Origin: Antiquaquibacter metalliresistens | GTDB lineage: Bacteria; Actinomycetota; Actinomycetes; Actinomycetales; Microbacteriaceae | Length of the DNA: 64,000 nt | NCBI RefSeq assembly: GCF_029211225.1 | Contig: NZ_JARGEM010000002.1 | Location: forward strand, 372,001 to 436,000 | Direction: 5' to 3' | Shown: piece by piece, positions 4,634 through 64,000 of the stretch | How positions within the stretch are numbered: the first letter of the stretch is position 1 | Layout: every line of letters starts with the position of its first letter | Program-made: the position numbers and the translations under genes | Notes under the pieces: model-generated | Database searches by the model: none | Seen by the model: the letters and a program-made list of their open reading frames with translations, nothing else | What the model was told of the DNA's origin: nothing

Positions 4634-7270
4634 ATGCGGGTGGAGGCCGGTCGCACGCTTCGGGGAGAGTGGCCGCTCGTTGGTCGCGATGAACTCATCG
4701 GCACCATCACGGCGAGCCTGCGGTCCCCGACCGCTTCGGTCGTCGTGCTCTGCGGCGCATCGGGGGTGGGCAAGTCCCGACTGGCGACCGAAGCTGCCGC
4801 GGCGCTCGGCGAGACCGAGTGGCTGACCATCCCGGTGAGCGCGAGCGATGCGATCGCCGCGATTCCCCTCGGCGCGCTCGCCCCCGCGCTCGCACAGTTG
4901 GGTGATGCCAGCCTCCCCGAGACCTCGACGGCGCTGTTCGACTCGGCACGGGCAGCGGTCGGCGCCGCCGCGCAGGGTCGTCGCGCGGTGATCCTCGTCG
5001 ATGACATCTCCCGGCTCGACCCACTCTCGCTCGCCCTCGTGATCCAGCTCGTGAGCGCGGGCAGCGTCAAGCTCATCGCGACCCTGCCGGAGGGCGATCC
5101 ACTCCCAGACGGCATCACCGCGATGTGGGCGGGCAACTCCGCCGTGCGCATCGACGTTCCCGCAATCACCCTCGAGCGGGTCAAGGAACTCCTCACTCAC
5201 GTCTTGGACGGCCCCGTGGCCAACCGCACCGCCGTCGACCTCCGGCGCCTCTCCGGCGGCAACACCCTTTACCTCCGCGAACTGGTGATCGGCACCGTCG
5301 AGTCCGGCCGACTCTCGGTACGCGCCGGCGTCTGGCAGTTGCTTGCAGATCCCGTGGCCACGAGCGCGTTGCGTGAGCTCATTCGAGCGCGATTCGAGCG
5401 GCTCACGCCGGAGGCACGAGCCGTTGCAGAGCGGCTCGCGCTGTGCCAGCCGCTCGCCCTCGCTGACTTTCCCGATCGGGATGCGCGCACCCACGTGATC
5501 GAGATGGAAGGCGCCGGCCTTGCCCGAATCGCCGAATCCGACGGAGGGCTGGAGATCAGCCTCGCCCACCCGCAGTACGCCATCATCGTCCGCGAGGCGA
5601 TGTCGCGGCTGCGAGTCATCGATGTGCTGCTCGAGACCGCCGAGCACGTGGCCGAGCGCGGTCGGGGCGACACCGACGACCTGCGGGTGGCGACCTGGCG
5701 ACTCGATGCCGATGCACCATCGGATCCCGCGCTGCTCGCCCGCGCAGCCCGCCTCGCCGCGCTCGCGCAAGACCACCGGGGAGTCGTGCGCCTGACGTCG
5801 GCGGCGATCGACGCGGGCGCGGCCACCGCCCCCATGCTGCTCCTCAAGGGCGAGGCGCTGTGGACCCTGGGGCGCGATGCCGAAGCCGTGCCGGTGCTCG
5901 ATCAGGCGGCCTCCGCCAACGACGACCCCGGCACCGACCCGACGCTCGGCGCGGATATCGCGCGCATGCGTGCCGCGGCGTACTGGGGCAGCGGCATGGG
6001 CGAACTGCCGGGTCTTGCGCTGCTGGATGCCGCCAGCCATCGCATGCCCGAGGCCGAGCCCGCGCTCGCCACGGCCCGCTCGGTGCTCTTGCTCTACCTC
6101 GAGGAGGCGACGCGCGCCCTCGCCGGCCTCCAAGACCCCGAAGAATCGCGTGACACGGCACTCCGACGTGCCGTGCGATCCGGATACCGCAGCCAGGCTC
6201 TTGCCGCCCGGGGTCGCGCGCAGGACTCGATTGCGGCGGCGCGGTACGCGGTCGAGTACGCGACCGCGTACGAGAGCGCCGCTCTGCCTCGACGGTGGTC
6301 CGAGATGCTGCTCGCGAGCGCACTGCTCCAGGCGGGCGATCCGGCGGCGGCCCGGGAGATCGCAACGGCCGCGCTCCACTCCGGCATGCAACACGACGAC
6401 GAGGTCGTCGTGAGCTACAACGAGTTCACCCTGGGGCGCTGTCAGCTCGCGGTCGGGCGGCTCGATGCCGCCGCCAGGTGGTTTCGGGATGTCGCATCCG
6501 GCTCGCTCGACCGCGGGCCGCTCCCCTACGGCGACCAGGCCACAGCGGCCCTCGCGCTCACGCTGGCCTGGCAGGGGCGCCTCGCTGAGGCCGCGGATGC
6601 GCAACAGAGACTCGATCCGCACTATGCCGCGAATGACTCGCACGGCGTACTGGCGACGCTGTGGATCGCGGCCGTCACGGGTGATCGGTCCGACGCGACC
6701 GACGCGCTGATCGAGCGTGCCGAAGTCATCACGCAACGCGGCCACCACGTCAACGCCGGGATGCTCCTGCACGCGGCCACCCGGCTCGGTGCGGCCAAGC
6801 GGGCCGCCCCTGCGCTCGCGGCCCTCGCCGCCGAGAGCAGCTCGCCGGCGATCGAGATGCAGGCGGCCCATGCCGCGGCCGAGGCTGCGGACGACGCCGA
6901 CGCCTTGCGGTCGGTCGGCGAGACCTGGGAACGCAGCAACCACCTGCTCTTCGCCGCCGAGGCCTACTCGTCCGCGTCGGCATCGGCCGCCCGCGGGGAT
7001 CGCAAGCGCGAGGCCTCCTCGTTGCGCGGCCAGGCGCAGCGCCTCGCCGCGTTGTGCGAGGGCGCGGCGACCCCCTTGCTGCAGTTCGGCAGCGAGTGGG
7101 AACCGCTCACGCCGCGCGAACGCGAGATCGCGGGCCTCGCGGCCCAGGGGCTGAGCACGGCCGACATCGCCGCGCGGCTGTTCCTCTCGCCGCGCACGGT
7201 CGACAACCACCTCCAGGCAACGTACGCCAAGCTCGGCATCCGCGGTCGCGGCGAGCTCTCGGCGGGCTAG
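4634..7270 (+). CDS. Large ATP-binding LuxR-family (LAL-type) transcriptional regulator
   Basis: 878 residues: an N-terminal STAND/AAA-type ATPase with Walker A GASGVGKS at 41-48 and Walker B VILVDDI at 119-125, a long alanine-rich helical (TPR-like) middle, and a C-terminal LuxR/NarL helix-turn-helix ([11 protein letters not shown]...SPRTVDNHL) in the last 60 residues. Such proteins are signal-integrating activators. The ligand cannot be read from sequence. AGGAGAGG ends directly at the ATG, so a GTG six bases on (4640) has better spacing and may be the true start. The 93-base gap from coaA contains CACAATAG, a possible -10. It is convergent with the LAXTG surface operon and is a candidate regulator of it (inference). 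Confidence 0.9.
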
Positions 7271-7332: not shown

Positions 7333-8154
7333 TCAGCGTGCGGTACGCGTGCGGCGGATGCCCCACACCAGACCCGCGCTGCCCAGCGCCAGCAGCGCGA
7401 GCCCCGGAGCCAGCAGCCCCTCGGAGACCGTGCCGGTGTAGGCGAGCGTGGACTGCTCGACGACCGTGTCGTCGCCGGTGGGGACAGCGGGCGGGGTGAC
7501 CTCGATGGTCACGAGAATCGGGTCGCTGACGAATCCATCATGATCGAGCCAATAGCTGAAGGTCTTGGTGCCGACGAATCCCGGTGCTGGCGTGTAGGTG
7601 AACTCACCGTAGACGTTCATGTCGATCTCACCCGTGGCATCGTCGTTGCCGCCGACGTGGGTCGAGTCCGGGTCGTTGTTGATCGTGCGATCCGCGGAGA
7701 CCACGAGTTGGGTGTCCATGGGGGTCGTGTAGAAGTCGGGCGCTCCGATGAGTTGACCGTGCTCGACCTCGATCCAGACGTCGGCGGAGTTGCTCGCGTA
7801 GCCATCGCCCGCGAGGTCGTTGTAGATGAAGTGAGCCGTGCCCCAGAAGCCCGGGTCGGGGGTGAAAACGAAGCTGCCGTCGGCGGCGAAATCGAGCGTT
7901 CCGCCGTCGGAGAGCGTGACGGCGTCGACGCGAAGGTTGCCGTTGCCGCCGTCGGTGTCGTTGGCGAGCAGCCCGGCGGCGGCATCGATGGAGATCGGAA
8001 CGTTGCGCGTGGTCCCATAGCCGTCGGTGTTGGCGACGGGCGGGAAGGTGGCATCCGCGGCGAGCGCCGCCGAGGAGAACAGGAGCGGTGCCGCGAGCGC
8101 CGTGCCGAGGGCGGCGAACGCGGTTGCGCTGCGCACGATGATGGTGCGGGACAT
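7333..8154 (-). CDS. LAXTG-anchored surface protein with bacterial Ig-like repeats
   Basis: 273 residues. A signal peptide (SRTIIVRSATAFA then a hydrophobic core, likely cut after ALA) is followed by two Ig-like/cadherin-like repeats of the Big_9 type. The first has GLLANDTDGGNGNL and ADGSFVFTPDPGFWGTAHF; the second has YGEFTYTPAPGFVGTKTF. The C-terminus is a sortase signal: LAYTG at about 237-241, a hydrophobic helix and a basic tail (RRTRTAR). LAXTG is the signal used by class E sortases of actinobacteria, so the protein should be covalently wall-linked. No sortase is in the window. It is the last gene of the four-gene unit, 40 bases after its neighbour. The binding target is unknown. Confidence 0.85.
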   Translation of the reverse strand: MSRTIIVRSATAFAALGTALAAPLLFSSAALAADATFPPVANTDGYGTTRNVPISIDAAAGLLANDTDGGNGNLRVDAVTLSDGGTLDFAADGSFVFTPDPGFWGTAHFIYNDLAGDGYASNSADVWIEVEHGQLIGAPDFYTTPMDTQLVVSADRTINNDPDSTHVGGNDDATGEIDMNVYGEFTYTPAPGFVGTKTFSYWLDHDGFVSDPILVTIEVTPPAVPTGDDTVVEQSTLAYTGTVSEGLLAPGLALLALGSAGLVWGIRRTRTAR

Positions 8155-8194: not shown

Positions 8195-8617
8195 CTAGAG
8201 CGGTCGAGCGAGCTCGAGGGTGAGGGTGGTATTCGGGGCGGCGGGGTCGAGGCTGACCGGGACCTTCGCGCCGGACTGCATCCGCCCGAGGTCGACCGCC
8301 GAGAGCACGGCCGTGTGGGCCGCAGCGAGCGGGATGCCCGAGGGCAGCACCACGAGCAGCTCGAGCTCGACGACCGACGCCTGGTTGATCTGCGCACCGG
8401 TGAGGCGGCAGGAGGTGACGGTCGCGATGGCCTCGACACGACGCGCCTGGCTCGCGGGATCCGAGGCCGCCGCGGCCTGCGCGTTCTGCGCGGCCATGGT
8501 GGCGTTGAGTCCATCGAGCCTGGACTGCATCGAGGCGAGGCTCGCGCCGACGTCGCTGCGCTTCTCGGAGGCCTTGGCCATGTCGGTCAGCCGAAAGTAG
8601 CTGTCGAGGAGGCCCAT
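8195..8617 (-). CDS. Small soluble protein with N-terminal coiled coil and C-terminal beta domain
   Basis: 140 residues, no signal peptide or membrane segment, so probably cytoplasmic. Residues about 10-55 are helical and alanine-rich. From about 65 it becomes beta-rich: TSCRLTGAQINQ, VELELLVVLPSGIP, GAKVPVSLDP. That half resembles a beta module I recall from other actinobacterial proteins with the pattern pdG.p......GA.VPV.vDP; this is a recollection, not a search result. The ATG at 8617 begins 1 base after the upstream gene's stop, so the two are tightly coupled. Function unknown. Confidence 0.75.
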   Translation of the reverse strand: MGLLDSYFRLTDMAKASEKRSDVGASLASMQSRLDGLNATMAAQNAQAAAASDPASQARRVEAIATVTSCRLTGAQINQASVVELELLVVLPSGIPLAAAHTAVLSAVDLGRMQSGAKVPVSLDPAAPNTTLTLELARPL

Positions 8618-8618
8618 C

Positions 8619-8981
8619 TCAGGCCGCCGTGAAACGCTGGTTGAACGCGGCACCGACGGCGGGGTCGGACTGGATGCGCGCGGCCCAGCCGTCTTGGGCG
8701 ATGGCCCAGTTCTCGGCGCTGACGCCGTAGGCCGCGGCCACGAGCGGAAGTTTCGCGGCGTCGTAGCCGTACGCCGCGATGCCCTTCGAGACCTTGACGT
8801 AGACGTCGAGGTCGACGCCGGCGATGGGCTCGAGCGCGGCCGCCGAGGGCACCGCCGGCGCGACGGCCGCTTGGGCCTGCTGCGCCTGCGCGTTGGCGGC
8901 GAGCTGGTTGGCGGACTCGATCAGATCTGGGGCGGCGTTCATCATCGCGCCCAGGTCTTTGACTGACTTGAAGAGGTTCAT
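8619..8981 (-). CDS. Small soluble protein of the LAXTG operon, unknown function
   Basis: 120 residues, no signal peptide. The first half (MNLFKSVKDLGAMMN, then AQAQQAQAAV) is helical and low-complexity. The second half, from about residue 52, is an ordered helical domain: PIAGVDLDVYVKVSKGIAAY, GVSAENW, DGWAARIQSDPAVG. The pattern of aromatic residues suggests a real fold, possibly an interaction module. AAGGAAACC before the ATG is a good ribosome site. It lies 38 bases after the first LAXTG gene and 1 base before the next small gene. I do not recognise the family with certainty. Confidence 0.75.
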   Translation of the reverse strand: MNLFKSVKDLGAMMNAAPDLIESANQLAANAQAQQAQAAVAPAVPSAAALEPIAGVDLDVYVKVSKGIAAYGYDAAKLPLVAAAYGVSAENWAIAQDGWAARIQSDPAVGAAFNQRFTAA

Positions 8982-9019: not shown

Positions 9020-9613
9020 TCAGACGGCCAGGGCGCGGCGGCGGGAGTGCCACAGCGCGAGGCCGCCGAGCGAGAGCAAGGCCAGGGCGGGCGCAGCCAT
9101 CCAGCCCGAGACCACGCCGGTGTAGGCGAGGGTGTCGAGGGGAGCGCTGTCGGTGTCCGTGGAGTCGGCGGGAGTGGCAGGCGCCACCGGTGCCGGATCG
9201 ACCGGCGCCACCGGCGCCGCCTCCACCGTGATGCTCACGGTGCGCGAGTAGCTCCAGTGCTGGTGACCATCGTCGGCGTTGTAGTTGAACGTCGCGACGC
9301 CGATGAAGCCTGCGGCCGGCGTGAACGAGAACGAGCCGTCGGCGTTCATGGTGAGCTCGGCGGCGTCGTAGTTGTACACGTACCCGACGGTGAGCAGGTC
9401 GCCATCCGGGTCCGTGTCGTTGGCGAGGATGCCGTTGGCGGCATCGACGGTGAGGGTCGAGCCCTGCACCATGCCGTAGCTGTCGTCCCAGGCATCCGGA
9501 ACGGTGTTGGGCGCGTCGTCGGCGTGGGCTGCGGTGGCACCGGCAAGACCGAGTGCCGCGACGCCGAGAACGGTGAGAGCACTGCACGTGGCAGTGGCGA
9601 GTGCGGTACGCAT
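9020..9613 (-). CDS. LAXTG-anchored surface protein with one bacterial Ig-like domain
   Basis: 197 residues and first gene of the operon. The signal peptide ends near ATAAHA. One Big_9-type Ig-like domain spans roughly 35-130 (GILANDTDPDGDLL, NADGSFSFTPAAGFIGVATF). A proline/alanine-rich stretch (about 133-160) would span the wall. LAYTG at about 162-166, a hydrophobic helix and HSRRRALAV form the sortase signal. It is a shorter relative of the protein at 7333-8154 and shares its exact LAYTG pentapeptide. AAGGAA precedes the ATG by 6 bases. A bipartite motif lies 88 bases upstream. Confidence 0.85.
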   Translation of the reverse strand: MRTALATATCSALTVLGVAALGLAGATAAHADDAPNTVPDAWDDSYGMVQGSTLTVDAANGILANDTDPDGDLLTVGYVYNYDAAELTMNADGSFSFTPAAGFIGVATFNYNADDGHQHWSYSRTVSITVEAAPVAPVDPAPVAPATPADSTDTDSAPLDTLAYTGVVSGWMAAPALALLSLGGLALWHSRRRALAV

Positions 9614-9700
9614 GGGGATTCCTTCTGAGTCACGTTGTCGCGCAGATTGCCGCGCAACATCAGACTCTCGGAGGTGCCCGTCGACGGCATGAGGGGCGAT

Positions 9701-9729
9701 TGCTCAACTCCCCCGACCGCGACTACCTA
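9701..9729 (-). promoter_or_regulatory. Bipartite motif TAGGTAG-N13-AGTTGAGCA upstream of the LAXTG operon
   Basis: Read on the minus strand, TAGGTAG (9729-9723), 13 bases, then AGTTGAGCA (9709-9701), 88 bases before the operon's ATG. The same two halves with the same 13-base spacer occur at 63117-63145, upstream of the lipoprotein gene. It could be an activator site or an unusual promoter. The rest of the 202-base gap (9614-9815) shows nothing else clear. Confidence 0.6.
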
Positions 9730-9815: not shown

Positions 9816-10169
9816 CTAGGCCTGTACGACGAGCGGTCGCAGGCTCTCGAGCCTGCTCTCGACCTGGTCGACGACGCCGGGCGCAACGCCGAGGTCGGCG
9901 AGGGTCACGAGCAGATGCGTCGTCACGCTCGTGAACGCGGCATCCGTGATCGCCATGTCGTGATGGGCGGCACCGAGGTCGAGCCCGGTGAATACCTGAG
10001 GACCGTCGAGCGCTGCGGTGAGAAAGGCGCGCTGGTGGGCCTTGAGCCGGGTCATGTCGACGCCGTCGAACCATGCGGCGAGGGTCGGATCATCGGTCAC
10101 GCGCCCGTACAAGACCGAAACGGCCGTCCTGAGGACGTCATTGCCGCCGATGTGCTCGTAGATGCTCAT
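9816..10169 (-). CDS. Truncated haemoglobin, group I (TrHbN-like)
   Basis: 117 residues, the short 2-on-2 globin fold. Compared with mycobacterial HbN: the B10 tyrosine is in VLYGRV (Y21), the E-helix glutamine in LKAHQRAF (Q46), and the proximal F8 histidine in GAAHHDMAIT (about H69). Group I proteins bind O2/NO and often detoxify NO. It differs from the second copy at 61496-61852 in the ALDGP (not ALGGP) turn and in the F-helix region. GAGGG precedes the ATG. It stands alone between glmM and the LAXTG operon and is preceded by two CTACTCA repeats. Confidence 0.92.
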   Translation of the reverse strand: MSIYEHIGGNDVLRTAVSVLYGRVTDDPTLAAWFDGVDMTRLKAHQRAFLTAALDGPQVFTGLDLGAAHHDMAITDAAFTSVTTHLLVTLADLGVAPGVVDQVESRLESLRPLVVQA

Positions 10170-10299
10170 AGTGCCCTCAATCCAATGCAGAACGCCCCAG
10201 GCACTGCGCCGAGACAGACGCCGAGGGTGGCCGGTGGCAGCAGTCGCAAGGGCACGGCGCCAGACTAACGGTGCGCACGACGAGATGGGCGGGATGCCA

Positions 10300-10329
10300 C
10301 TACTCAATCCCCGGGGCCGACTACTCAGT
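10300..10329 (-). promoter_or_regulatory. Direct repeats of CTACTCA upstream of the globin gene
   Basis: CTACTCAAT (10300-10308) and CTACTCAGT (10321-10329) match at 8 of 9 positions and are 21 bases apart, two helical turns. On the minus strand they read TTGAGTAG and CTGAGTAG and resemble the halves of the motif at 9701-9729. They sit 131 bases before the globin ATG, in the 175-base gap after glmM. Confidence 0.5.
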
Positions 10330-50771: not shown

Positions 50772-50931
50772 CGGGGTAAGTCCTCCTGGGATCGTTCATC
50801 GGGTGGCCCCAGCGTGTCAGTGGGAACGCTCCCGCGGCAGTCGTCAGTTCTCATGACACCCGTTCGGGGGGTAGGACGATGCGTACCTGGCCGGGGAAGT
50901 GCGCAATAGTGGGGGCGGGAGGTTCCGCCAG

Positions 50932-51588
50932 GTGTCGACGCTCCAGTCCTCAGCCGCCATCCGGCTCGCTCACGTGGACGATCACGAGACCGTACGGCTC
51001 GGGTTCGCACACCTGATCGCGGGCGAGGCCGATCTCGAGCTGGTGGCCTCCGTCGCGACGATCGCGGAGTTGCTGCCGAGGCTCGGTGAAGTCGATCTCA
51101 TCGTGCTCGATCTGCAGCTCTCCGACGGCTCGAGCCTGAACCACAACCTCAACGCGCTGGCGGGCGGCGCGGCCCGAGTCCTGGCGTTCACCGGGGCCGA
51201 CAACCCGGCGAATCTGCGGCTCGCCTCACGGGCCGGCGTGCTGGGCATCCTGCGGAAGTCGGAGACGCGAGAGGTGATCCTCGACGCGCTCCGTCGGGCC
51301 GGACGAGGCGAGGGCATCGTGACCACCGAGTGGGCGGCCGCACTCGATTCCGATCCTCATCTCTCCTCCGCCGGGCTCAGCCCGAAGGAGCAGGAGGTGC
51401 TCGCGCTGTACGCCTCCGGCGACAAGTCGAGCGTGGTCGCGTACCGCGCCGGCCTCTCGGCGGGCACGGTGGCGGAGTACGTGCGGCGCATCCGGCACAA
51501 GTACGCGATGGCGGGCAGGCCCGCTCACACCAAGGTCGATCTGTACAAGCGCGCGGTCGAAGACGGCATCCTGCCGCAGGTGGAGTGA
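50932..51588 (+). CDS. NarL/FixJ-type response regulator
   Basis: 218 residues from GTG at 50932 (GGGAGG 9 bases upstream; an in-frame GTG at 50899 is less likely). Receiver domain: acidic pair D16/D17 in LAHVDDHETVRLG, phosphoacceptor D60 in DLIVLDLQLSDG, T87 in AFTGAD, K109 in LRKSE. LuxR-type helix-turn-helix in the C-terminal third (LSPKEQEVLALYASGDKSSV, GLSAGTVAEYVRRIRHKYAM). CAATAG at 50905-50910 is a possible -10. It is the first of a three-gene plus-strand unit. Confidence 0.92.
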   Translation: MSTLQSSAAIRLAHVDDHETVRLGFAHLIAGEADLELVASVATIAELLPRLGEVDLIVLDLQLSDGSSLNHNLNALAGGAARVLAFTGADNPANLRLASRAGVLGILRKSETREVILDALRRAGRGEGIVTTEWAAALDSDPHLSSAGLSPKEQEVLALYASGDKSSVVAYRAGLSAGTVAEYVRRIRHKYAMAGRPAHTKVDLYKRAVEDGILPQVE

Positions 51589-61948: not shown

Positions 61949-62560
61949 ATGGCTGCAGAACCCGCCCGGATCGTGCTCGTCGGGGCCGAATCGACCGGAA
62001 AGACGACGCTCGCGCGCGAGCTGACGGAGCATTTCCGCGCCCGCGGAGGCGACTGGGCCGACACGCGTTGGGTGCCCGAGTACGGCCGCGAGTACACCGA
62101 GCTGCTGCTGGAGCGCCAGGGCGCGGTCGCGGCCGAGGGCGAGGCGGCGAGCGCGGAGTGGACGGCGGTGGATTTCGTGCGGATCGCGTTGGAGCAGCAG
62201 CGTCGTGAGGATGCGGCCGCGGCATCCACGCGCTCCCCCGTGCTGTTCTGCGACACCGACGCGTTCGCCACCCAGGTGTGGGAGCGCCGCTACCTCGGCC
62301 CAGGCAGCACGGCCGCGTTCGACGCGCTGCCGGTGCTGCCGCCGCGGGCGCTCTACCTGCTCGCGGACGTGCACGGCGTGCCGTTCGAACAGGACGGCAT
62401 TCGCGACGGCGAGAACCTGCGCGAAGCCATGCAGGGATGGTTCGTCGAGGAGCTCGAGGCGCGGCGCGAGCCCTGGGCGCTCGTCACGGGCTCACGCGAA
62501 GAGCGCCTCGCCACGAGCATCCGGCTCGTGGACGAGGCGCTGGCCTTCGCGACCGACTAG
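61949..62560 (+). CDS. NadR-like P-loop ATPase / nucleoside kinase
   Basis: 203 residues of the AAA_28/NadR kinase fold: RIVLVGAESTGKTTLARELT (Walker A), WVPEYGREYTELLLERQG, LFCDTDAFATQVWERRYLG, and the lid-like LADVHGVPFEQDGIRDG. In NadR this domain phosphorylates nicotinamide riboside; here it stands alone with no adenylyltransferase or HTH domain. The substrate is thus not proven. Its stop overlaps that of the convergent lipoprotein gene. Confidence 0.85.
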   Translation: MAAEPARIVLVGAESTGKTTLARELTEHFRARGGDWADTRWVPEYGREYTELLLERQGAVAAEGEAASAEWTAVDFVRIALEQQRREDAAAASTRSPVLFCDTDAFATQVWERRYLGPGSTAAFDALPVLPPRALYLLADVHGVPFEQDGIRDGENLREAMQGWFVEELEARREPWALVTGSREERLATSIRLVDEALAFATD

Positions 62561-63042
62561 CGCGCCGCGCCCGCGAGGGAGGTGCTGATCTGACCCGCCG
62601 GATCGAACAGGATGCAAGAGACCTGGCGGTCGTTGTACTCCTTCCAGCCGTCGGCGGTCGGCACGTAGTAGTTGTAGTCCAGGGAGGACTCCTCGAACGC
62701 GAGACCGACGTAGCCCGCGAACGGCCCGTAGCACCCCTCATCGGCGAGGCTGAACACCTCGTCGTCACCGGGGAAGGTCGCGCGGTCGATGTCGAACTCC
62801 GCGTAGACCTCGTAGTCGTGCGGCTCGGTGCACGGCACGGTTGGGATGTCGGTGACGACATCTCCGCCGGGCTCGTTGAAGCAGTCGCCAACTTCGATCC
62901 ACGTCGACTGATCGTTGAGGGCTTCGGCGATGGGTGTGGCGACGTCGATGACGTCCTTGATCGAGCTGCAGCCGCCGAGCGCGATGCCGACGCCGAAACA
63001 GACGACGACGACGGCGGCGATGCCGCGGGTGGTGCGATGCAT
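62557..63042 (-). CDS. Lipoprotein with Septum_form-type domain
   Basis: 161 residues. Signal peptide with lipobox LGGC (C25). The outer domain has four conserved cysteines: VGDCF (54), VPCTEPHDYEVYAEF (71), EGCYGPF (104) and RQVSCILFDP (143), plus SLDYNYYVPTADGWKE. This pattern is that of the actinobacterial septum-formation (DUF) family, whose role is poorly known. ATG at 63042. A bipartite motif shared with the LAXTG operon lies 75 bases upstream. Confidence 0.85.
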   Translation of the reverse strand: MHRTTRGIAAVVVVCFGVGIALGGCSSIKDVIDVATPIAEALNDQSTWIEVGDCFNEPGGDVVTDIPTVPCTEPHDYEVYAEFDIDRATFPGDDEVFSLADEGCYGPFAGYVGLAFEESSLDYNYYVPTADGWKEYNDRQVSCILFDPAGQISTSLAGAAR

Positions 63043-63116
63043 TCTGACTCTCCTTGGGTTGGAATCGGTATGCCCCAAGACTCGCGTTCGAGCGGGGCGA
63101 GCGGATGGGCATCCAC

Positions 63117-63145
63117 TGCTCAACTGCCGCCCGGCCGCCTACCTA
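63117..63145 (-). promoter_or_regulatory. Bipartite motif TAGGTAG-N13-AGTTGAGCA upstream of the lipoprotein
   Basis: On the minus strand TAGGTAG (63145-63139), 13 bases, AGTTGAGCA (63125-63117). All 16 motif bases and the spacer length equal those at 9701-9729. The intergenic region 63043-63183 is shared with the divergent methyltransferase gene and also has CTACCGGGTAG (63164-63174). Confidence 0.6.
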
Positions 63146-63183
63146 CCCGACGTGTGCGGATACCTACCGGGTAGCCTCGACGA

Positions 63184-64000
63184 GTGACTGAGATCCCCGA
63201 GCGCACCCTCGCCGCGAGCGGCTACCGGGCGACGATCACCCCCGACCGTTGGGTCAACGGCGCCTACACGCTCACCGTCAACGGCACACCGCAGTCACAC
63301 GTGAATCTCGAGAACCCGAGCGAGCTGTTCTTCGAGTACGTGCAGCGCATGGGGCACGTGATCGATCGAATCGGCGAGCCCGGCGAGCCCATCACGGCAC
63401 TGCACCTCGGTGCCGGCGCACTCACGCTCCCCCGATATGTCGAGGCCACCCGTCCCGGCTCCCGGCAGCAGGTCATCGAGCTCGAGTCCGACCTCGTCGA
63501 CTTCGTGCGCGCCGAGCTGCCCTGGTCGAAGCAGGCGTCGATCCGCATCCGTCACGGGGACGCGCGCGACGTACTCGGCCGGCTGCCGGCAGGGCTGCGC
63601 GGCACTGTCGACCTCATCGTCGTCGACGTGTTCAGCGGGGCTCAGACGCCCGCCCACGTGACGAGTGTGGAGTTCTATACCGAGGCGGTCGCGCTGCTGT
63701 CGGCACGCGGCATCCTCGTGGCCAACGTCGCCGACGGCCCCGGCCTCGCGTTCGCTCGCGGGCAGGCCGCGACGCTCGCCGCGGTGCTGCCAGAGGTGGC
63801 GGTGCTCGCCGAGACCCAGATTCTGAAGGGCCGCCGCTTCGGCAACCTCGTGATGGTCGGCTCGCGAGCGCAGTTGCCGTTCGACTGGATGCCCCGACTG
63901 CTGGCCGCGGGTCCGCACCCCTCCAAGGTCGTAGCCGGCGCCGAACTGCGCGAGTTCATCGGTGGCACCCCGGTCGTCACGGACACCACGGCCACCGGGT
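63184..64000 (+). CDS. Spermidine-synthase-like methyltransferase-fold protein (3' end missing)
   Basis: At least 272 residues, open to the window edge. Start GTG at 63184 gives VTEIPERTLAASGYRATITP. The SAM-type motif is ITALHLGAGALTLPRYVEAT, then QQVIELESDLVDFVRAELPW and DLIVVDVFSGAQTPAHVTSV, as in polyamine-synthase/fused methyltransferases. No Shine-Dalgarno; TAGCCT six bases upstream would make a leaderless mRNA. True polyamine synthesis is uncertain; many actinobacterial homologues are not characterised. Confidence 0.85.
   Translation, partial: MTEIPERTLAASGYRATITPDRWVNGAYTLTVNGTPQSHVNLENPSELFFEYVQRMGHVIDRIGEPGEPITALHLGAGALTLPRYVEATRPGSRQQVIELESDLVDFVRAELPWSKQASIRIRHGDARDVLGRLPAGLRGTVDLIVVDVFSGAQTPAHVTSVEFYTEAVALLSARGILVANVADGPGLAFARGQAATLAAVLPEVAVLAETQILKGRRFGNLVMVGSRAQLPFDWMPRLLAAGPHPSKVVAGAELREFIGGTPVVTDTTATG

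Follow-up and report, generated by a model that had tools for sequence, protein, structure and literature searches.

In the 64-kb stretch of DNA analysed here (the window), a motif repeated in front of two surface-protein genes is, with a probability that we put at about 0.8, part of the operator-promoter of a small regulon. The regulon would be controlled by the large ATP-binding LuxR (LAL) regulator encoded at 4634-7270, which would act as an activator next to the polymerase.

Two copies of a bipartite motif

The initial annotation had described the motif as TAGGTAG-N13-AGTTGAGCA. Both copies (9701-9729 and 63117-63145) are exact, lie in the same orientation on the minus strand, and are separated by 88 and 75 bases from ATG 9613 and ATG 63042, respectively, as had been claimed. 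With up to 3 mismatches allowed, they are the only bipartite copies in the window. Dinucleotide shuffles of the window contained on average 0.02 copies, and none of 100 shuffles reached two. Because both halves were picked by eye, after looking, the shuffles overstate the significance; the convincing evidence for the motif is conservation at orthologues rather than the shuffle figure. Each bipartite site is preceded, at a distance of 21 bases, by one more TRGGTA-type copy. With this copy added there are two exact occurrences in the window, where 0.23 would be expected even if 2 mismatches were tolerated.

The whole genome (3,072,245 bases) contained no third exact copy of the 16-mer. With up to 3 mismatches the bipartite pattern was found at 18 places and the reversed pattern at 28, thus the relaxed 16-mer is not enriched beyond the two exact copies. 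Among 27 genomes of the genus the exact 16-mer was present only in the window genome (G000). One-mismatch versions occurred in seven others (GAGGTAGTTGTT-type strings in six, TAGGTAG...AGTTTAGCA in one). The 16-mer alone would fail the test of conservation upstream of orthologues that the initial annotation had itself set.

The motif is part of a longer element

Comparison of orthologue upstream regions revealed a longer, related element, whose core is the inverted repeat TGAGYA-N5-TRCYCA. The order of its parts is TRRGTA, 15-17 bases, TGAGYA, 5 bases, TRCYCA, 22 bases, [GT]ANNCT. Of the two original blocks, TAGGTAG corresponds to the upstream half-site, and the first arm falls within AGTTGAGCA. 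The unit is not a fixed one of 7 + 9 bases, since an inverted second arm and then a -10-like hexamer follow, and the fixed spacer of 13 is not general (11-13 in relatives). The longer element precedes the orthologous LAXTG and lipoprotein genes of G006, G019 and G024. In G002 and G003 it precedes the LAXTG genes; none was found in front of the nearest lipoprotein relative of G003. What conservation among relatives supports is therefore the longer element and not the 16-mer, and the proposal of a regulator site in front of envelope-protein genes holds in this form. The genes concerned in the window are:

7333..8154, minus strand: second LAYTG cell-wall protein, 273 aa, two cadherin-like/Big_9 stretches
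8195..8617, minus strand: third gene of the apparent operon, 140 aa, no Pfam match
8619..8981, minus strand: second gene of the apparent operon, 120 aa, no Pfam match
9020..9613, minus strand: first cell-wall protein, 197 aa, signal peptide, cadherin-like/Big_9 domain, LAYTG sorting signal
9816..10169, minus strand: group 1 truncated haemoglobin gene, 117 aa (Pfam Bac_globin, E 9.8e-16)
62557..63042, minus strand: exported protein, 161 aa, lipoprotein-like N-terminus and Septum_form domain, target of site 2

The two LAXTG genes are separated by the two small genes at 8195-8981, and all four may share a transcript. The PDB relatives of the globin are of the group 1 HbN/GlbN type, with GlbN (5ab8) and HbN (1idr) among the first five. 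Three sites precede these genes, the third of which, upstream of the globin gene, the initial annotation had not seen:

9724..9729, minus strand: site 1 half-site TAGGTA, 23 bases before the first arm; further TGGGTAG 21 bases upstream
9690..9706, minus strand: site 1 inverted repeat TGAGCA-ATCGC-CCCTCA, upstream of the first LAXTG gene
9662..9667, minus strand: site 1 putative -10 hexamer GAGTCT, 39 bases after the first-arm start, at a conserved position
63140..63145, minus strand: site 2 half-site TAGGTA, 23 bases before the first arm; further TAGGTAT 21 bases upstream
63106..63122, minus strand: site 2 inverted repeat TGAGCA-GTGGA-TGCCCA, upstream of the lipoprotein gene
63078..63083, minus strand: site 2 putative -10 hexamer GAGTCT
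10290..10306, minus strand: site 3, TGAGTA-GTGGC-ATCCCG, upstream of the globin gene

In site 1 the first arm is exact and the second has 2 mismatches to TRCYCA. The second arm of site 3 is weak (3 mismatches); this site is preceded at 21 bases by the half-site TGAGTA and followed by TAGTCT at 10262-10267. The short region that contains site 2 (63043-63183) is shared with a divergent plus-strand gene, which starts near 63184; the 267 residues read of its product have no Pfam match at E 0.01. By eye, the same divergent neighbour is present in G006, G019 and G024.

Ten sites could be aligned without gaps from the first arm through the -10-like hexamer. The full set comprises 18 sites in six congeneric genomes, picked by the first arm TGAGYA, which by this selection is present in all 18. 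The second arm TRCYCA is exact in 12 sites, has one mismatch in four and 2-3 mismatches in two; both of the latter belong to the window genome, two of whose three second arms are poor. [GT]ANNCT starts exactly 39 bases from the start of the repeat in 16 of the 18 sites; the other two have CACTGT one base later, if this is accepted as the hexamer. TRRGTA was found 21-23 bases upstream of the first arm at all 12 non-globin sites and at one of the six globin sites. An inverted repeat of short half-sites beside a promoter, as found here, is the form of LuxR/NarL-family operators, and by its symmetry TGAGYA, the reverse of TRCYCA (TGRGYA) and TRRGTA appear to be versions of one half-site. By eye, most non-globin sites, but not the globin sites, show GGATGGG across the second arm and its flank when the opposite strand is read. 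This string is one base from the MalT box GGA[TG]GA; the conserved arrangement here is the inverted repeat.

The longer element bears on two other explanations. Two blocks upstream of genes at nearly constant spacing might be the -35 and -10 boxes of an alternative sigma factor, for which TAGGTAG and AGTTGAGCA had also been considered. The spacing of these blocks varies (11-13) instead of being fixed, as it would be for an alternative sigma factor, the first block is absent at five of the six globin sites, and the second has an inverted partner and is followed by a hexamer whose spacing is better kept. The pattern is that of an operator with inverted arms beside a -10-like box, and recognition by such a factor is highly improbable. 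Equally improbable is chance, i.e. that two similar strings were found afterwards among many intergenic regions: the uniqueness of the exact 16-mer to the window genome and the choice of the halves by eye would fit it, but the enlarged element is conserved at orthologous promoters and next to LAL genes of other families, and the controls, both reversed and shuffled, came out clean.

The LAL gene and the sites occur in the same genomes

Two candidate readers had been named, a LuxR-type protein and a response regulator. The former is the preferred one here:

4634..7270, plus strand: large ATP-binding LuxR (LAL) regulator, 878 aa, proposed reader of the sites

Its N-terminal part matches the ATPase family AAA_16 of Pfam above the cut-off of that family (E 1.4e-12), with the Walker A sequence GASGVGKS at residues 41-48. 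The C-terminal helix-turn-helix (residues 824-875) matches Pfam GerE (E 1.2e-14), and GerE (1fse) is its closest solved structure (E 2.5e-9). The middle region matches TPR_7 and TPR_8 at E 4e-4 to 6e-4, under the curated cut-offs. The layout is that of MalT and other LAL regulators: an N-terminal Walker A ATPase, a long middle region and a C-terminal LuxR helix-turn-helix. MalT is switched by ATP and a signal: it multimerises in dependence on ATP and inducer and activates sigma-70 promoters. By analogy the 4634-7270 protein would be switched in an ATP- and signal-dependent manner. GerE of Bacillus subtilis differs from it in being a free 74-residue protein without an ATPase part. The GerE half-site, TRGGY, resembles TRRGYA.

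LAL orthologues with 45-54% identity were found in only six of the 27 genus genomes (G000, G002, G003, G006, G019, G024). The same six have the sites, five of them by model score and the sixth (G002) by position. In the four relatives examined (G003, G006, G019, G024) the LAL gene is divergent from a surface-protein gene, with a site between them. More distant LAL proteins (29-30% identity) are present in six further genus genomes. The window genome and G002 each have a second LAL protein (31-32% identity); that of the window genome lies at G000:C12:249213-251756 (32% identity), and no repeat was seen in the 5.5 kb of its locus (L214).

Model R1, built from 10 sites of G000, G006, G019 and G024, gave matches at E about 2e-5 or better only in G000, G003, G006, G019 and G024. 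It found two sites outside its training set, the globin site of G000 (E 2.2e-5) and a site in G003 (2.0e-5). The best match in a genome without a LAL orthologue had E 0.0066 (G012). The G002 site scored E 0.15, weaker than matches in genomes lacking the LAL gene; it was accepted because it lies between the LAL gene and the surface-protein gene, and it entered model R2 only after this recognition by position. One R1 match (G019:C56, E 8.6e-4) was rejected, as it falls inside an apparent coding frame that we take to be TctC-like.

Model R2 was trained on all 18 sites and used to search 24 of the 27 genus genomes; G008, G018 and G020 were left out for lower completeness or many contigs. All 18 sites scored E 0.0025 or better (weakest true site 20.5 bits). 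Sites 1 and 2, both in the training set, scored E 5.9e-6 and 1.3e-6 in the window genome. The best match in the 18 genomes without a LAL orthologue (18.7 bits, E 0.009) came near the weakest true site. No further strong target was found by R2 in the 24 genomes.

The other candidate reader, the NarL-type response regulator encoded at 50899-51588, also has a LuxR/GerE helix-turn-helix, and its half-sites could look alike. Its relatives are present in all 27 genus genomes, with a best match of at least 65% identity in 21, many of which have no site at all, and its gene is not linked to the sites. We consider it very unlikely that this protein reads the motif. The LAL protein, which shares its distribution with the sites, most likely binds them.

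The repeat at LAL loci chosen independently of the motif

LAL loci from outside the site set point the same way. A first set of 29 loci (427,034 bases) was selected from named genomes without regard to the motif and spanned Microbacteriaceae to Streptomyces, Micromonospora, Nonomuraea and Acidimicrobiaceae. It contained 16 strict TGAGYA-N5-TRCTCA repeats in 13 loci, and their distance to the LAL match ranged from 18 bases to 5.3 kb. The loci had no copy of the reversed pattern, and none of 20 dinucleotide shuffles yielded a strict repeat. When the two training genomes (G003, G019) were set aside, 14 strict repeats in 11 of 27 loci remained. A second set of 29 LAL loci (38 of 394 genomes of the class had a LAL match) yielded eight strict repeats in six loci, and none of the reversed pattern. 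Removal of two repeated records (L253 = L147, L246 = L142) left seven in five of 27 loci. No strict repeat was seen in 16 of the 29 loci of the first set and in 23 of the 29 of the second.

Four repeats lie 62-235 bases upstream of the LAL match (two in Streptosporangiaceae, one each in Acidimicrobiaceae and Herbiconiux), and another lies 222 bases upstream of it in a Streptomyces, which suggests that such LAL genes may be autoregulated. Perfect repeats were also observed beside globin-free LAL genes of Streptomyces, Micromonospora, Streptosporangiaceae and Acidimicrobiaceae (L144, 9643; L143, 6547; L152, 1515 and 1676; L153, 6779 and 10599; L156, 6907; L158, 11070; L164, 5322). The target genes differ there (a protein kinase in L153).

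Wider scans were less telling. Over 148 genomes of the class TGAGYA-N5-TRCTCA had 95 matches versus 56 for the reversed pattern (sums made by hand), a modest enrichment that is weak on its own. Among the matches listed, 34 belong to 11 genomes that have a LAL match as well, and 12 of these 34 were at most 6 kb from it (counted by hand). A phylum scan for TGAGTA-N5-TACTCA was uninformative (3 of 149 genomes, mostly of far-off classes). A distant genome of the same phylum, G139, has five exact copies of this repeat on contig C1 against none reversed, which suggests a larger regulon there. The family scan revealed LAL in eight of 199 genomes. Of the loci that it gave (L205-L213), four show a loose repeat (L206, L207, L209, L213), and none was noticed in L205, L208, L210, L211 or L212.

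A globin gene is linked to the LAL gene

The idea that the targets are envelope proteins alone proved too narrow, since the globin gene is also a target, and the more widely linked one. In G002, G003, G006, G019 and G024 the globin gene is situated beyond the LAL gene. The globin repeat is perfect or near-perfect in these genomes (e.g. TGAGCAATGATTGCTCA), with a GATCCT-type hexamer at the same distance as at the other sites. By tblastn a globin gene adjoins the LAL gene in Microbacterium, Herbiconiux, Agreia, Nocardioides, Salinibacterium and Rhodoglobus loci, and also in L205-L210 and L244-L246. In most linked loci the two genes are arranged tail to tail.

A repeat with at most one mismatch was present in the 200 bases upstream of 11 of 16 LAL-linked globin genes, and the reversed pattern upstream of none. 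Among 1000 base shuffles of the 16 upstream regions, 981 had no repeat and 19 had one. Outside the genus, six of ten globin upstream regions had the repeat at this stringency. In L161 and L207 the globin gene is preceded by CAGGTAGTCNYTACTCA (three mismatches), with GATTCT at 39; in L208 and L210 no repeat was recognisable in the 200 bases upstream. In a maximum-likelihood tree of 56 LAL proteins, made by a quick method, all 18 globin-linked rows fell into one group of 19 rows (SH-aLRT 100). The remaining row is L212, which lies in tandem with the globin-linked L207.

In Herbiconiux, Nocardioides and Agreia a large cadherin-like/Big_9 protein gene is divergent from the LAL gene, with a repeat between the two or at the edge of the longest frame. 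In Nocardioides extra TGAGTA/TACTCA half-sites crowd two regions, the globin promoter and the stretch between the LAL and cadherin-like genes (L142, upstream of 9935; L246, 1200-1520).

Position of the repeat relative to the promoter

No -35 element is recognisable by the sites; the repeat starts 39 bases before the -10-like GANTCT. If this hexamer is the -10 box, as is most likely, the start sites would follow from it, and the centre of the repeat would lie near -43 and the extra half-site near -71. An activating role is proposed because the repeat is placed as polymerase-contacting activators usually are, and MalT-type LAL proteins are activators.

The LAL protein might instead bind the sites and repress the genes, or the conserved hexamer might be something other than a -10 box. 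The position relative to the polymerase was deduced from the hexamer alone, and a LAL protein, SCO6993, is reported as a negative regulator (PMC9628970). Against repression, the promoters show nothing that resembles a -35 element, the repeat would be centred near -43 with the hexamer as the -10 box, as in activator-dependent promoters, and MalT-type proteins activate. Repression or a misread hexamer is thus unlikely, though less so than the other alternatives, and activation by the LAL protein most likely applies.

The C-terminal LuxR/GerE-type helix-turn-helix of the LAL protein would read TGAGYA-N5-TRCYCA, which at surface-protein promoters is accompanied, as a rule, by an extra TRRGTA half-site two helical turns upstream. 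Once switched on by ATP and some signal, the protein would bind the repeat and the half-site adjacent to RNA polymerase. The bound protein would then activate the globin gene, the LAXTG cell-wall operon and the Septum_form lipoprotein gene.

Discussion

LAL regulators and LuxR-type inverted repeats are known kinds of things; the unusual partner here is the globin. The boxes of MalT, as quoted in PMC9628970, are direct repeats of GGA[TG]GA, unlike the inverted-repeat core TGAGYA-N5-TRCYCA with its upstream half-site. According to the same source SCO6993, a LAL protein of Streptomyces coelicolor, was footprinted on short palindromes, binds its own promoter and represses. Its authors state there that no consensus could be predicted, and the site sequences given differ from TGAGYA-N5-TRCYCA. 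TpdR of Rhodococcus jostii is, like the 4634-7270 protein, a LAL regulator, with a different site sequence and function; according to PMC6099782, it activates an operon with a direct and an inverted repeat near -35, and the proposed site is a 15-nt direct repeat, TnnAAnnGCGGAnTC. ComA of Bacillus subtilis has a helix-turn-helix of the same superfamily but is a response regulator. Its promoters, as described in PMC4797271, have an inverted hexamer repeat and extra direct-repeat elements, which lie downstream of the inverted repeat, whereas the half-site here is upstream. Neither TGAGYA-N5-TRCYCA as a LAL site, nor the LAL-globin pair, nor a consensus for the globin-linked LAL group was found in the literature covered, which includes few subscription papers; PMC10100954, PMC3466318 and PMC5595907 yielded nothing decisive. 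Among the papers listed, four contain TGAGTA as well as TACTCA, in two of them within primers; TACTCA in PMC7480387 occurs in primers only.

Judged from the sequences compared, the LAL protein probably switches on surface proteins along with a small haemoglobin in certain actinobacteria of soil and water. A wider reading is speculative and on balance doubtful, namely that the genes of the LAL protein and of the group 1 globin next to it act as a two-gene switch that responds to gas or redox state. If it were true, the pair would have moved as a unit through Microbacteriaceae, Nocardioides and one or more further families. The globin would handle or report nitric oxide or oxygen, and the LAL ATPase would integrate that signal. 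The output would be remodelling of the cell surface by sortase-anchored cadherin-like proteins, and TGAGYA-N5-TRCTCA would be a general recognition code, used by many LAL proteins of actinobacteria that form a large group.

A bipartite motif picked by eye has resolved, upon orthologue comparison, into half an operator. LAL regulators are numerous in actinobacteria, and the DNA target is known for few. The comparative evidence offers a concrete candidate operator for one LAL clade and a partial code for its relatives. It also ties a truncated globin to the LAL regulator by gene order, operator and a single clade in the tree, and links both to surface proteins.
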